Below are positions 17,258-29,851 of a DNA stretch of 30,679 nucleotides, one piece after another. Numbering within the stretch: position 1 is the stretch's first letter; the number at the start of each line of letters is the position of its first letter. The DNA is from a virus. The notes beneath the pieces were generated by a model. The model ran no database searches. It was not told the origin of the DNA and saw nothing but the letters and a program-made list of their open reading frames with translations. The DNA lies in IMG/VR virus record IMGVR_UViG_3300044970_000043, positions 1 to 30,679 of that record; one strand, given 5' to 3'. The position numbers and the translations under genes were made by a program.

Positions 17258-18028
17258 ATGTTTGGCGTTAGTGCATTTGCTCAAAGCCCGTATGCTTCCT
17301 TAGCTGGAAATACGTTATTTGCAAATGCTAGTGTCAATGCAACAGCAACCTTTACTGCAAATGGTAGAAGGGTTCAGACTGCTGCTGGATCTGTTAATGG
17401 AACCGCTACATTTGCTGCTAATGCAATTCGGGTTCAACGTGGTGCAGCTTCTGTAAATGCAACAGCGACGGTAACTGCTAACGGTAGAAGGGTTCAATCT
17501 GGCGCTGGTTCTGTCAATGCGACAGCAACTTTTACAGCAAATGGTAGGAGAGTTTTATTAGGAAATGCTGCTGTTAATGGAACTGCGACAGTTACAGCAA
17601 ATGGTGGATTAACTCAATTTGGTAATGCTGTTATTAATGCAGCAGCAACTTTTACCGCTAATGGAAGAAGGGTTCAGTCAGGCTCTGGTTCCATTAATGC
17701 AACGGTTACTTTTACTGCTCTTGGCGGTGTTAGATACGATGGTGTTGCATATATTAATTGTGAGGCATTAGTTAATTGTATTCCAAACGCTACATTCTCT
17801 GGTGTTGGGTACGTTAATGCTTTAGCAATATTTAGTGCTAATGGTGGAATTATTGGTGAGGAATGGTCAGACGTTATTCCTGAAGGTACTACATGGACTG
17901 AGCAAATGCCTGAAAGCAATCAGTGGACTGAAGTAACTGCTGGATCGGGTAATTGGGATTTAGTTGCTGCCAATAGCAATACATGGACTCAGGTATCAGA
18001 ATCAACAAATAGTTGGACGAGGCAATAA
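17258..18028 (+). CDS. Repeat-built virion protein (20-residue repeats plus W decads)
   Basis: 256 residues, starting right after the previous stop. After a 24-residue leader come nine repeats of exactly 20 residues (25 to about 200) on the plan SVNATATFTANGRRVQSGAG, the last three degenerate. Residues 201-256 change to a second pattern with Trp at 203, 213, 223, 233, 243 and 253, every tenth residue. No signal peptide or metal motif. The alternating small/beta-branched residues suggest a beta-solenoid or stacked beta-sheet shaft. Being between tail surface proteins and the gp10-like protein, it is most likely a virion spike or filament. No family name is recognised. Confidence 0.75.
   Translation: MFGVSAFAQSPYASLAGNTLFANASVNATATFTANGRRVQTAAGSVNGTATFAANAIRVQRGAASVNATATVTANGRRVQSGAGSVNATATFTANGRRVLLGNAAVNGTATVTANGGLTQFGNAVINAAATFTANGRRVQSGSGSINATVTFTALGGVRYDGVAYINCEALVNCIPNATFSGVGYVNALAIFSANGGIIGEEWSDVIPEGTTWTEQMPESNQWTEVTAGSGNWDLVAANSNTWTQVSESTNSWTRQ
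17330..17857 (+). repeat. In-frame 60-bp tandem repeats
   Basis: Nine consecutive 60-base units encode the 20-residue repeats of the protein above. The tract GTCAATGCAACAGC or close variants recurs at a 60-base pitch. Units 1-6 are the most alike; 7-9 diverge. Synonymous differences between units show the array is not a very recent duplication. Confidence 0.85.
17864..18016 (+). repeat. In-frame 30-bp period (tryptophan decads)
   Basis: TGG codons occur every 30 bases from 17864 to 18014 (six copies), each usually followed by T, S or D plus an acidic or glutamine residue. The period is exactly half that of the preceding array. Confidence 0.8.
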
Positions 18029-19452
18029 TGGCTAAACAAAAGATACTACTTGGTGAATGGTTGCCAGATCAGCCGGGAGTTACTGGGTCAGTTACAGAGG
18101 CTACTAATTGCTATCCTGTTACCAATGGGTATGCCCCGTTTAAAGGTGAAGCAAATTTATCTGATAACGCTGGTGCTGAACTATTGCTGACGTTCGCTGG
18201 TAAGTTTGCAAACGGTGTAACTTTATTTGCTGGATCGAGTTCCAATCTTTACAAGTTTAGTACAGCGGATTTAGATCTTGATGCTTTGACAACAACCGGG
18301 TACTCAAACATTGAGTTTTGGGATGTGACTCAGTTTGGTCAAAAGATGATTGCTGCTAATGGCGCTGATAAGCTCCAATCTTATGATCTTGTCGTAGGCA
18401 CTGCATTTGCTGATTTGGCCGCTGCTGCTCCTGCTGCTAAGTTTGTAACGGTTGTCCGTGACTTTGTTGTGGCTGCTAGTGTTAGTGGCGATGAAAACAA
18501 GGTTTATTGGTCTGATATTAACGATGAGACAGACTGGACTCCCGGTGCTGCATCTCAGTCAGATAGCCAAGTATTGCCAGACGGAGGTAATGTTACTGGC
18601 CTAGCTGGTGGCGAGTTTGGCTTAGTGCTTATGGAACGCGCTATATACCGAATGAGTTATGTCGGCTCTCCGTTCTTTTTCCAGTTTGACGCTATTTCTA
18701 GGTCTTTGGGCTGCATTTCTAACGGGTCTATTGCTCAGTACGGCAACCTAACGTATTTCCTTGCAGACGATGGTTTCTATGTTTGCGACGGCCAGAACCT
18801 AAAGAATATTGGCGAGGAGAAAGTTAATCGCTATTTCTTTGACGTTGCTGCCAAAGGTGATTTGCGGCTAAAGATGTCATCTGCTGTTGATCCTATTCGT
18901 AAGTTGGCTATGTGGTGTACTCCGCTACAGTCAGGTGGTTATGGATTATTTGTTTTTAGCATCCCTTTAAACAAATGGTCTTACATTGAAACCACTGCAA
19001 CATCGATTGCTTCTGTGTTAACTGCGACAACTACGCTTGAAGACTTGGATAATTACTCTGCAAGCCTTGATGCTTTAGCTGTTTCTCTTGACGATCCTCA
19101 ATGGGCTGGTGGTAATTTGCTGCTTGCTGGTACATCTGGTCAAAGAATAATCACATTTGGTAACTCTTTTAAGACTGCGAGCATATCAACGGGTGATATT
19201 GATACTGGTCGGTCTATTATTACTTTAGCAAAGCCAATTGTTGACGGTGGTAGCGGATCTATTGCTGTTTCTAGCCGGGATAATCTTGGTGAGCAAGTGG
19301 AATTTGGCTCAAGTGTGGCTCCTGACGCAGAAAACCGCGTGAGCTTGCGGTCTAACGGTGAATATCATCGACTAAAACTGACTCCTACTGGAACTAGCTG
19401 GAAAACTGCTGTTGGCATGGAGTTTGACATTGTTAAACAGGGTGATCGATGA
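18028..19452 (+). CDS. Tail accessory / packaged-DNA stabilisation protein (P22 gp10-like)
   Basis: 474 residues from ATG 18028, with GAGG at 18019-18022 five bases upstream; a TTG at 18013 would add 5 residues but lacks support. The opening LLGEWLPDQPGVTGSVTEATNCYPV with GYAPFKG is the family signature. Repeated beta blades follow (ITFGN, VYWSDINDETDWTPG, YRMSYVGSPFFFQFD, ISRSLGCISNGSIAQYG, YFLADDGFYVCDGQ), as in the beta-propeller of P22 gp10. It plugs the portal-adaptor channel and holds packaged DNA in. Strong support for a short-tailed phage. Confidence 0.85.
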   Translation: MAKQKILLGEWLPDQPGVTGSVTEATNCYPVTNGYAPFKGEANLSDNAGAELLLTFAGKFANGVTLFAGSSSNLYKFSTADLDLDALTTTGYSNIEFWDVTQFGQKMIAANGADKLQSYDLVVGTAFADLAAAAPAAKFVTVVRDFVVAASVSGDENKVYWSDINDETDWTPGAASQSDSQVLPDGGNVTGLAGGEFGLVLMERAIYRMSYVGSPFFFQFDAISRSLGCISNGSIAQYGNLTYFLADDGFYVCDGQNLKNIGEEKVNRYFFDVAAKGDLRLKMSSAVDPIRKLAMWCTPLQSGGYGLFVFSIPLNKWSYIETTATSIASVLTATTTLEDLDNYSASLDALAVSLDDPQWAGGNLLLAGTSGQRIITFGNSFKTASISTGDIDTGRSIITLAKPIVDGGSGSIAVSSRDNLGEQVEFGSSVAPDAENRVSLRSNGEYHRLKLTPTGTSWKTAVGMEFDIVKQGDR

Positions 19453-25261: not shown

Positions 25262-26182
25262 ATGGCAAAGAACAAGATTAGCGAATACAGCGCCACTGCT
25301 GCAAATAATACCGACATTGCAGGTATTAACATAGCAGAGGGTTGCGCTCCGTCTGGCATTAATAACGCTATCCGTGAGTTAATGGCGCAACTTAAAGACC
25401 AGCAAGCAGGTACTGATGGCGATAACTTTACCGTAGGCGGTGGGTTTACTTCTGTTGGTGCTGCTGTATTTTCTAGCACTGTGGCTATTGCTGGTAATGC
25501 AACTATTAACGGTGATTCGACTATTGGTAGCGCATCGACTTCAACAGTAACGCTTAATGCTTCTACGGTATCTACTCCTAATGGCGTTAACTTTGACTCA
25601 AATACACTTGTAATTGATGCAACAAATAACCGTATTGGTATAGGTACTGCATCTCCAGCGGTATCTTTGCACGTTAACTCAACCAATGCTATCCGTATTC
25701 CAGTAGGCACTACGGCTCAACGTCCAGACGCTGCCTTTACAGCTTCTATTAGCGGTACAACAATGACTGTTACTGCTGTTGCTTCTGGCGCATTGGCAGT
25801 GGGTCAGACAGTTAACGGAACTGGTGTAACTGCTAATACGACGATAACGGCTTTAGGAACTGGAACCGGCGGGAATGGAACATATACAGTAAGTGCATCC
25901 CAGACGGTAAGTTCTTCTTCCTTAACATCTTCTAGAGTGGGTTATATTCGTTATAATTCTAGCAATAACGAATTTGAAGGTTATAACGGTACGGTATGGG
26001 GTCAGTTAGGTGGCGGTGCTACAGGTGGTGGCAATGACAAAGTATTCGTAGAAAATAGCCAAACTATTACTACTAACTATACAATTACGAGTGGGAAAAG
26101 TGCAATGTCCACTGGTGAGATTACGGTTAATTCTGGCGTAACTGTGACACTTCCTACTGGCTCACGGTGGGTTATTCTCTAA
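25262..26182 (+). CDS. Tail fibre protein with inserted module
   Basis: 306 residues; ATG 25262 is 7 bases past the previous stop. N-terminal domain [33 protein letters not shown] is the attachment head of many phage fibres. A beta shaft follows ([30 protein letters not shown]). [10 protein letters not shown] at about 147-155 is normally joined to [20 protein letters not shown], but here about 68 residues of Ser/Thr/Gly beta sequence ([20 protein letters not shown] to the SSSLTSS end) separate them. The terminal 25 residues ([20 protein letters not shown]) match the end of 16757-17257. Expected receptor-binding role. Confidence 0.8.
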
Positions 26183-26192
26183 GAGGTTTTAT

Positions 26193-26759
26193 ATGGCATC
26201 TTTAGTTCTTGCAGGTGATACCAGCGGCTCGATTACGGTATCTGCTCCTGCTGTCTCTGGTAGCAATACGCAGACGTTGGTAGCTACCACAGGTACGTTA
26301 GCGCCCATTGTATCGGGTACAGCGGTAGCATCTACCAGCGGAACCAGCATTGACTTTACGTCAATACCTAATTGGGTAAAGCGGGTCACGGTAATGTTTA
26401 ATGGGGTGAGTACAAACGGCACATCATTACTGCAATGTCAAATTGGTTCAGGCTCTGTTACAACTTCAGGCTACGCTGGTGGTTACTCCAGAGGTACTAC
26501 GGCAGCATCTGCAACTTCAGGGTTGATTATTCAGGCAGCCCCGGCAGCAGCGTCTACTTATTACGGTTCTGTAGTTTTTTATAACTTAACTGGAAATACT
26601 TGGTTAGGTTCTTCAAACACCATTACAGCAAATAGTGATGCTGCAACATTGGGTAACGCATCTGTTGCCCTTTCCGGCACTCTCGACCGCGTCCGTATCA
26701 CCACAGTCAACGGCACAGATACCTTTGACGCTGGCACTATTAACATTCTCTACGAATAA
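26193..26759 (+). CDS. Fibre/tip protein A (paralogue of the 27637 gene)
   Basis: 188 residues; AAGAGG at 26181-26186 precedes ATG 26193. N-terminus MASLVLAGDTSGSITVSAPA with GSNTQTLVATTGTLAP is a common fibre adaptor. From about 45, SGTSIDFTSIPNWVKRVTVM to TDTFDAGTINILYE is a tip domain shared with the protein at 27637-28173. The middle varies. Probably exposed on the virion and part of an adsorption array. No enzymatic motif. Confidence 0.7.
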   Translation: MASLVLAGDTSGSITVSAPAVSGSNTQTLVATTGTLAPIVSGTAVASTSGTSIDFTSIPNWVKRVTVMFNGVSTNGTSLLQCQIGSGSVTTSGYAGGYSRGTTAASATSGLIIQAAPAAASTYYGSVVFYNLTGNTWLGSSNTITANSDAATLGNASVALSGTLDRVRITTVNGTDTFDAGTINILYE

Positions 26760-27425: not shown

Positions 27426-27646
27426 TTACGATAGATTTTGACAAGGCCAAGGCCATTACTAAAGACCGGCTACGTGCTGAACGCACACCACTACTAGCTG
27501 CTCAAGATGTGGCATTTCAACGTGCGCTAGAGGCTAATGGTGATACGGCTGCGGTTGTGGCTGAGAAACAGCGTCTGCGTGATATTACTAGCCAAGTAGA
27601 CACTTGCACTACTTTAGATGAACTGAGGGGGTTGTCATGTCAGTAA
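27422..27646 (+). CDS. Small helical protein, possible fibre assembly chaperone
   Basis: 74 residues. FDKAKAITKDRLRAERTPLL, AAQDVAFQRALEANGDTAAV, VAEKQRLRDITSQVD and CTTLDELRGL: the helical pattern with KAK-I--DRLR--R and AAQDVAFQRALE is well known to me from tail-region genes and from the C-terminal parts of tail assembly proteins. It pairs with the 67-residue gene just upstream. It overlaps the next gene by 10 bases; GGGG at 27628-27631 serves that start. Confidence 0.7.
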   Translation: MITIDFDKAKAITKDRLRAERTPLLAAQDVAFQRALEANGDTAAVVAEKQRLRDITSQVDTCTTLDELRGLSCQ

Positions 27647-28173
27647 TTATTAACGGTAGCGCAGGTGTTACTACAAATAGTGGTGCTGTATATGATGGCT
27701 TGCAAAGAGGTACTGCGGTAACTGCTTCTGGTACGTCTGTTGACTTTACTAGCATACCGTCATGGGTTGAGCGAATTACGGTGATGTTTAGCGGTGTCAG
27801 TACGAACAGTATTAACCCTATCCTTGTGCAAATTGGTGATTCTGGCGGTATTGAAACAACAGGCTATGTGTCAGGAAATTCAGCAATTGGCAATCAGGTC
27901 GTAGGATCACTTACAACAACTACAGTCGGCTTCATGGGCACAAGTTCATTTGTTGCTGCTCAGACTTTAAGCGGTGCAATTGTTTTATCAAACGTAAGTG
28001 GAAACATTTGGGTCGCTCAAGGCAGTTTATTTTTAAGCGCAACATCAACCTATGCTGTTGGTGGCACGAAGACACTATCCGGTACACTGACACAACTGCG
28101 CGTCATAGGCAGCACAACAGGTTCGCCTACAGACACCTTTGACGCTGGCTCTATTAACATCATTTATGAGTAA
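27637..28173 (+). CDS. Fibre/tip protein C (paralogue of the 26193 gene)
   Basis: 178 residues. Different N-terminus from A (MSVIINGSAGVTTNSGAVYD), then the same framework: SGTSVDFTSIPSWVERITVM, FSGVSTN, TLSGTLTQLRVI, TDTFDAGSINIIYE. The central sequence (IETTGYVSGNSAIGNQVVGS and onward) is unrelated in detail, as expected for diversified receptor-contact loops. Last of the fibre genes before the lysis cassette. No catalytic residues recognised. Confidence 0.7.
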   Translation: MSVIINGSAGVTTNSGAVYDGLQRGTAVTASGTSVDFTSIPSWVERITVMFSGVSTNSINPILVQIGDSGGIETTGYVSGNSAIGNQVVGSLTTTTVGFMGTSSFVAAQTLSGAIVLSNVSGNIWVAQGSLFLSATSTYAVGGTKTLSGTLTQLRVIGSTTGSPTDTFDAGSINIIYE

Positions 28174-29064: not shown

Positions 29065-29216
29065 TAATGGCTTTGACGTTTGTCGTTGTACTCCCTGTGC
29101 TTGGGGTGATGTACATGGATCTAAACAATGCTCGTGTGGCTGTAGAGATGGAAATAAGGGCTATCAGGGAACTACGCAAGCAAATTATTAACGAGCGAAT
29201 AAGGGGTGAGCCTTGA
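28962..29216 (+). CDS. Small membrane protein overlapping the previous gene
   Basis: 84 residues. A basic head MVWRNPFRRSVVPRR, one long membrane segment at about 27-51 (SFALVLCVLVMALTFVVVLP), then an amphipathic helix ending IRELRKQIINERIRGEP. About 40% of the gene lies inside the end of the upstream frame, yet the layout NPFRR...DVSFALVL-VLVMAL---VLPVLG-MYMD matches small proteins I know from this position, and its TGA is overlapped by the endolysin start. Candidate holin/antiholin component. Confidence 0.65.
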   Translation: MVWRNPFRRSVVPRRASSSKGESDVSFALVLCVLVMALTFVVVLPVLGVMYMDLNNARVAVEMEIRAIRELRKQIINERIRGEP

Positions 29217-29851
29217 TTACTATGCAGCAATTTACTCAGTTAGTGCCAAACACTAAGTATCCTAAACAGTGGTACGAGGCGCTGTTTGGTAAGCAGACTG
29301 AGCTATCTGGCAAATCATTGGCTGAGGAGTACGAAATCAATACTCCTAAGCGTATTGCTGCATTTATGGCTCAATGTGGTCATGAGTCTGGTGGCTTTGT
29401 CTGGCTGACAGAGAACCTAAACTACAGTGCTGCTGGTCTAATGAAGACCTTTGCTAAATACTTCCCTGACCAAGCCACAGCTAACGCTTACGCTCGTCAA
29501 CCCGACAAGATTGCTAACAAGGTCTACGCTAACCGTATGGGCAATGGCAATGAGGCTAGTGGTGATGGCGCTCGATACAAAGGTCGAGGTCTGATTCAGG
29601 TTACTGGCAAGGATAATTACTTCTGGTTCGCCTCATCTCTTGGAATTACTCCTGAAGAAGCCTCAGAGTATATGCAGACCTTTGAAGGTGCTGCTCAGAG
29701 TGCTTGCTGGTATTGGGAAACAGCTAGCCTAAATAAACTGGCTGATGCTGGTGATATTTTGACTATGACTAAGCGCATTAACGGAGGAACCATTGGACTC
29801 GAAGACCGTAAAAAACATTATGCTCATGCTCTCCATGTGCTTGGTGGCTAG
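29213..29851 (+). CDS. Endolysin, glycoside hydrolase family 19
   Basis: 212 residues from TTG 29213, with AAGGGG about 8 bases upstream and a TTGA overlap with the previous stop; ATG 29222 is the alternative. Catalytic region AQCGHESGGF gives Glu58, with Glu67 in TENLNY as the second acidic residue; then YKGRGLIQVTGKDNY at 122-136 and INGGTIGLEDR near the end, all GH19 landmarks. It cleaves the glycan strands of peptidoglycan. No signal peptide, so release depends on a holin from the same cassette. Confidence 0.92.
   Translation: MITMQQFTQLVPNTKYPKQWYEALFGKQTELSGKSLAEEYEINTPKRIAAFMAQCGHESGGFVWLTENLNYSAAGLMKTFAKYFPDQATANAYARQPDKIANKVYANRMGNGNEASGDGARYKGRGLIQVTGKDNYFWFASSLGITPEEASEYMQTFEGAAQSACWYWETASLNKLADAGDILTMTKRINGGTIGLEDRKKHYAHALHVLGG

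Follow-up and report, generated by a model that had tools for sequence, protein, structure and literature searches.

A predicted small beta-barrel module at a common tail fibre junction recurs in virion proteins of unrelated families

In one phage tail fibre, a run of sequence common to many fibres, GTTAQRP-GYIRYN, is interrupted by a long insert. Is the interruption real, is the insert a mobile fibre cassette exchanged by recombination, as an initial annotation of the locus had proposed, and what is the inserted segment? The fibre is encoded in a virus record of 30,679 bases (here called the window, meaning the whole stretch of DNA that was analysed). Because the window contains genes for an SU10-type portal (Pfam SU10_portal, 4e-227) and an SU10-type major capsid protein (SU10_MCP, 2e-105), its probable source is a short-tailed phage with a distant resemblance to SU10. 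The ORF at 25262-26182 is located downstream of these genes, and this position, together with similarity to annotated fibre proteins outside the module, identifies its product as a tail fibre protein as far as sequence can tell. Two ORFs downstream of the fibre (26193-26759 and 27637-28173) both match the same C-terminal stretch of phrog_29482 and look like related tail-associated parts. An endolysin-like ORF (29213-29851; phrog_181, 9e-72) is present near the window end. The features of the fibre gene are as follows.

25262-26182, plus strand: tail fibre ORF, 306 amino acids, carrier of the module (PHROG matches and 80 relatives from viral contigs)
25262-25441, plus strand: conserved N-terminal part, residues 1-60 (strong conservation in the alignment of relatives)
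25583-25663, plus strand: GIGT block, 27 residues, residues 108-134 (alignment; phrog_1417 match to residues 107-159)
25703-25726, plus strand: upstream half of the junction, VGTTAQRP (sequence, alignment)
25727-25939, plus strand: inserted module, 71 residues, with a 68-residue profile core at 25727-25930; predicted small beta-barrel (profile, AlphaFold2)
25940-25957, plus strand: downstream half of the junction, GYIRYN (sequence, alignment)
25940-26179, plus strand: C-terminal cap, 80 residues, from GYIRYN to RWVIL (phrog_34255 and phrog_5342; comparison with other fibres)

PHROG matches cover the central, module, and C-terminal parts of the fibre, the last including a match of phrog_5342 (tail fibre) to residues 261-306 (5e-9); the N-terminal part has no PHROG match. 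Residues 1-60 share 47-71% identity with the N termini of phage proteins annotated as tail fibre, hyaluronidase, tail collar, or hypothetical proteins, and they probably form the end that anchors the fibre to the virion. The C-terminal cap is common to fibres with other N-terminal parts. Directly upstream of the junction, the GIGT block constitutes a second variable block, which occurs with the junction module and is missing in the alignment from L017, L019, L021, L022, L060, L066, and L079 (L numbers are our labels for the retrieved loci).

The interruption of the fibre run was confirmed. The insert occupies exactly 25727-25939 (71 codons), where relatives have 4 or 5 residues. The flanks are intact and in frame, as first described: one open frame crosses the 306-residue ORF and continues without interruption from the 12 residues before the insert through its 71 residues into the 17 that follow. 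A length of about 68 residues had been proposed at 25730-25933; the length agrees with the 68-residue profile core, while the coordinates of that core are shifted to 25727-25930. From 423 fibre relatives found, 80 were kept. Five of these carry the module at the same junction, in frame and with 71 or 73 residues (L001 to L005, L002 being identical to L003). Another 18/80 have an empty junction and no module in that ORF, a count that includes copies (e.g., L017/L018 and L022/L023, with the same lengths and scores) and two ORFs that are cut short (L065 and L073). The arrangement TTAQRP-4 residues-GQ[IL]RYN was found in 19 loci, among them L020, which has the module upstream in the same ORF. A junction of 4 to 5 residues combined with an upstream module characterizes 11/80 relatives (L006 to L015 and L020), with a 5-residue link (TTTQRPSTGV[EQ]GYIRYN) in L006 and L008 to L015 and a 4-residue link in L007. 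The junction pattern was not shown by 46/80 relatives. L017 has no module, although its first 78 residues differ from those of the window fibre by one. Because the in-frame module is kept at the same place in L001 to L005 and relatives without it exist, the split is real and not a product of chance. The segment searched alone was found elsewhere in the same protein and in other genes. Homologues thus do not all carry it at the same place with equal divergence; depending on the homologue, it is absent, located elsewhere, or found in a different gene.

The usual state of the junction was assessed in a sample drawn without regard to the module. IMG/VR was scanned with a DNA pattern for R-Y-N-x5-F-E-G-Y-x-G, which gave at least 120 stretches; the 120 listed contain 122 sites. 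A G-T-type run was detected automatically within 30 residues upstream at 113/122 sites and by eye at five more (L363, L410, L442, L466, and L476). Three sites were without such a run (L368, L401, and L458), and one (L167) was split by the same module. With short links at 118/122 sites, the short link appears to be the normal state of this common fibre element, in agreement with the initial description of the junction as canonical. Among the 120 bait loci listed, seven have the module in some ORF, and one of these, L167, has it at the junction. This distribution argues against the explanation that the module is native to the fibre and was lost by the short-link relatives, which we regard as improbable. 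Sister fibres with the same module at a different site, and unrelated genes that contain it, also speak against nativeness.

To what extent is the module a domain in its own right? A profile was built from ten copies and iterated on 361 sequences, most of them fetched for matching the module. It detected at least 580 copies in at least 400 ORFs of 287/361 sequences, the window and its copy L081 included; the ORF count covers ORFs of 50 residues or more and contains repeats due to contig overlap between sets (L082 with L235, L158 with L168, and L014 with L173). Of the 515 near-full-length copies (580 in all), 460 are distinct. There is one copy in 259 ORFs, two in 116, and three to eight in 25, and consecutive copies in one ORF are most often spaced by 4 residues. 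Their identity (median 0.52, n = 180) equals that of random pairs (0.52, 400 draws). Consecutive copies are therefore no more alike than random ones, a result that either uptake from a pool or ancient duplication would predict. The profile search found only one copy in the window, with 100.4 bits against the iterated profile, a score that is not independent because this copy was among the seeds. In several bacterial genome records (L337, L315, L288, L312, and L359), ORFs with four to eight copies were observed, one of them 1,777 residues long.

Once the module was masked, the carriers were divided among at most 97 groups, of which 65 have a single member. Joining a group required ≥60 aligned residues and 60 bits, so that the total is an upper bound, and it takes in fragments. 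One representative each of 83/97 groups was scanned for known families; outside the scan were 6 groups without an ORF of 120 to 1,300 residues and 8 further groups with long ORFs. The two PHROGs that contain the module matched 77 and 71 of the 83 carriers. PHROG families with two or three carriers (25 of 112 listed) included head closure Hc3, tail sheath, minor head protein, baseplate wedge, the phrog_3287 virion protein, and fibre families, and a tail terminator family was among those of the carriers with a PHROG or Pfam match. By Pfam, SU10_adaptor was matched by two carriers, and DUF3383, two phage capsid families, lambda head decoration protein D, a neck terminator, and FG-GAP/ASPIC, among others, by one carrier each. 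Individual scans located the module within a terminator-type protein (L121), a minor head protein (L293), a baseplate protein (L254), and a phrog_3287 protein (L103). The phrog_3287 protein of the window itself (18013-19452) is distantly related to the L103 protein (30% over 108 residues) and lacks the module. In a tail sheath protein from a Paraburkholderia genome record (L283:5515-7335; DUF3383/phrog_205), the module is internal (residues 203-279 of 607); the sheath aligns over DUF3383 positions 2-490 of 493, and the module is inside that stretch. Both the fibre family and this sheath bear out the view that carriers would be complete without the module.

Taken together, these sequence comparisons show that the module has very many carriers unrelated to one another, in different families of virion proteins, and that the junction exists with and without it. 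The module is in this respect a general virion domain, and the part of the initial annotation that restricted it to fibres does not stand. The explanation that we consider probable is that the module, about 67 residues long, is a promiscuous virion domain that folds independently, is set in a fibre turn, has been spread by recombination, and likely makes a weak contact with a surface.

The module was also detected within existing database families. PHROG 21413 (function unknown) and PHROG 38233 (tail fibre protein) both have profiles that contain it; each profile describes a whole protein (595 and 896 positions, respectively), of which the module is one unnamed stretch. At E ≤ 0.001, they were matched by 120/124 and 119/124 module sequences, and the window copy matched them at 9.7e-20 and 1.2e-18. 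Searches of Pfam, NCBIfam, and PDB sequences with the module gave scattered weak matches, none of them credible. No Ig family was among the 10 Pfam families matched by any of the 124 modules at E ≤ 0.1, and of the NCBIfam Ig models, only Ig_like_ice was matched, by 1/124 modules at a noncredible 0.033. A tblastn search of phage and plasmid collections with the module alone and the low-complexity filter on returned no match. We do not read this blank as absence of the module, because the filter was on and the module is found by profile searches and PHROGs. With the full-length fibre as the query, none of the best 40 of 170 records was inside the module alone, for which the low-complexity filter is perhaps responsible. 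No paper containing the core motif strings of the module was found in a full-text search, and none was found on a promiscuous domain combined with sheath, decoration, or barrel.

Evidence for exchange comes from comparing the module with its flanks in close relatives. Outside the module, L001 and L005 have fibre ORFs with 98.8% identity, and inside it the two are 18% different; the counts are 8/672 differing nucleotides in the flanks and 39/213 plus a two-codon indel in the module (Fisher p 2e-18). This difference between module and flanks is about 15-fold; it is 6-fold for L001 and L002 (22/672 in the flanks and 42/213 in the module, p 2e-13), in which silent changes are raised too. A mild difference was found for L002/L005 (p 0.02), and for L002/L004 it runs in the opposite direction, with the modules closer to each other than the flanks are (p 0.03); L001/L004 and L004/L005 have no module-flank difference. 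As the L001 and L005 sequences attest, the module can differ sharply between otherwise nearly identical fibres, and this pair represents a natural swap experiment.

Such a difference might also arise by point mutation, i.e., hypervariation through positive selection or a diversity-generating retroelement, instead of cassette exchange. Consistent with that possibility, the 27 module codons that differ between L001 and L005 include 16 replacements, and no donor module was found for either fibre. However, silent changes are raised as well (11/71 module codons versus 7/224 flank codons), and the two-codon indel likewise argues against hypervariation, which we judge to be very improbable. The L001/L005 module difference, silent codons included, points to recombination, and here the proposal of a cassette holds.

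The exchange did not involve the module alone. Outside the ORF, the DNA of L001 and L005 is 62% alike over 1,500 bases upstream and 54% alike over 600 bases downstream. The corresponding values are 61% upstream and 98% downstream for L001/L002 and 98% upstream and 56% downstream for L002/L005. Because the DNA beyond the L001 and L005 ORFs is mosaic, the event separating them appears not to be limited to the module; judging from these alignments, the tail-gene region is mosaic as a whole, with active recombination that includes the module. The window copy presents a different picture. Compared with L001, L002, L004, and L005, its module is 21-30% different and its flanks are 21-27% different (p 0.25-1.0). 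With module and flanks diverging equally fast, there is no sign of a recent exchange. Nor was a recent DNA transfer of the window module found: excluding L081, L004/L264, and L001, matches longer than 100 bases are 66-78% over 102-191 bases. L091, whose contig is as long as the window, has no 25-mer in common with it. The recombination first proposed for this locus is thus upheld for the L001/L005 module and is not visible as a recent swap in the window copy. The best DNA identity across masked groups, 91% for L166/L203, was not counted as a transfer, a 102-residue ORF piece being involved.

The same turn is occupied in three fibre sets with different N-terminal parts, namely, the window set, the set of L202, L223, L238, L215, L172, L263, and L239, and L167. 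The C-terminal cap is common to all three (56-61% identity to that of the window), as a module native to the fibre might predict. The junction modules of the other two sets, however, rank only 108-287 of 517 in closeness to that of the window, like modules in general, which is a further argument against nativeness. In a cap tree of 46 rows (after dropping ORFs not ending in RW plus 1 to 4 residues, the window copy L081, and caps that repeated another in both sequence and label), three changes of the junction label are required, of which starred branches impose at least two, and module-free fibres are interspersed among the window set. A single junction-module clade, which would suit a native module, withstands the AU test (p 0.117 with all 11 rows included and 0.114 without L167); a single origin of the insertion is thus disfavoured by the cap tree but not rejected. 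Although the tree favours a threefold origin at the junction, we do not claim one given this AU result. Recurrence at the junction would be explained either by repeated insertion or by transfer of a module-plus-cap unit.

AlphaFold2 run on 84 window residues with an alignment of 124 sequences predicted a confident small beta-barrel (mean pLDDT 90; blocks 11-70 at 95-98), with strands at 7-25, 33-35, 43-48, and 56-74. Going by these strand positions, the first and last long strands would reach the junction on either side, as would fit a domain inserted in a turn. The full-length fibre model was poor (mean pLDDT 53.5), and the junction geometry is taken from the module model. By Foldseek, the best PDB match was the 124-residue chain 1 of 8eci, from Arthrobacter phage Bridgette (E = 0.014, 31% identity), with no PDB match at E ≤ 0.001. 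VIA-align gave Z scores of 7.5 for 1xe1 and 6.9 for the 8eci chain (34% identity over 68 residues), values that, being below 8, may mean a common arrangement; translation-factor barrels scored about 5-6.6, a range where common arrangements occur. No Ig domain was among the best 50 rows of either Foldseek or VIA-align, which does not exclude one. In BFVD, a set of predicted viral structures, 17 entries matched at E ≤ 0.001 and shared 29-60% identity with the module. Some of them carry the names HK97 major capsid, P22 gp10-like, or Stf fibre, and two others are collagen-repeat proteins of the giant virus Indivirus. The latter (A0A1V0SCQ2 and A0A1V0SDM6, from Indivirus ILV1) have 49% and 37% identity to the module, and these matches would mean transfer between phages and giant viruses.

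What might the module do? Ten of its columns are nearly invariant and consist of seven glycines, two threonines, and one tyrosine; no conserved polar site is among them, and no catalytic signature was seen in the module. If it is a promiscuous virion domain, the module would have been inserted at the turn that joins the GTTAQRP stretch to the GYIRYN stretch and could be accommodated without disturbing the fibre because its first and last long strands are predicted to abut the insertion point. It would stand off the shaft, in three copies on each fibre should the fibre be trimeric, and could spread when module copies recombine with one another, their ends being conserved. By analogy with the glycan-binding Ig-like domains of phages, it would most likely contact the host surface or other glycans weakly and with low specificity. 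The conservation of glycines, threonines, and a tyrosine fits a structural spacer equally well. A passive spacer or stiffener (for stability, spacing, or protease resistance) that binds nothing is a less likely alternative, which also draws on the presence of the module in neck-type proteins (head closure Hc3 and tail terminator) besides exposed ones. At a turn with adjacent ends, however, the module would add no shaft length, and the replacement of 16/71 module codons between the near-identical L001 and L005 fibres suggests that its surface matters.

Ig-like domains of phages are the standard example of promiscuous virion decoration. Fraser and colleagues reportedly described them as small beta domains on several kinds of virion proteins of unrelated phages. 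The module resembles them in being a small beta domain on several kinds of virion proteins in unrelated phages; it differs in having no credible Pfam or NCBIfam Ig match and in its predicted fold, a small barrel. The EF-Tu domain II-like barrels (1xe1, IF2, eEF1A, and EF-Tu) align over most of the module with Z scores of about 5-7.5, which, below 8, may reflect a common arrangement; they have 8-23% identity to it and no functional tie. In phage Douge, Ig-like domains of MCP and TTP bind cell-wall glycans and are proposed to aid attachment (PMC13033339). The same paper describes dimeric CCPs around the capsid penton of Bridgette; thus, 8eci chain 1 is likely one of them. This chain, the best PDB match to the module, is a short separate chain and not part of a fibre. 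Phage SU10 reaches the surface by means of long and short fibres, and its nozzle takes shape after attachment (PMC9509320). Recent domain shuffling has been documented for phage fibres and other tail proteins (Smug et al. 2023, PMC10684548); the module displays the same domain mosaicism and is not described in the passages of that paper that were consulted.

A promiscuous virion domain is therefore of a known kind, and what is new is this family, which has no credible Pfam or NCBIfam match. A bolder reading, which we offer tentatively and hold to be somewhat less probable than its opposite, is that an unnamed hyper-promiscuous beta-barrel serves viruses as a second general-purpose decoration beside Ig-like domains. 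Such a domain would be traded among the fibres, sheaths, necks, and capsids of phages, would also occur in giant virus proteins and proteins of bacterial genomes, and would have entered the same fibre turn repeatedly, being swapped fast enough to retune adhesion with the rest of the fibre unchanged. If this is true, part of the "hypothetical" sequence in the structural proteins of environmental phages would be a single part common to many proteins, open to expression and testing on its own.
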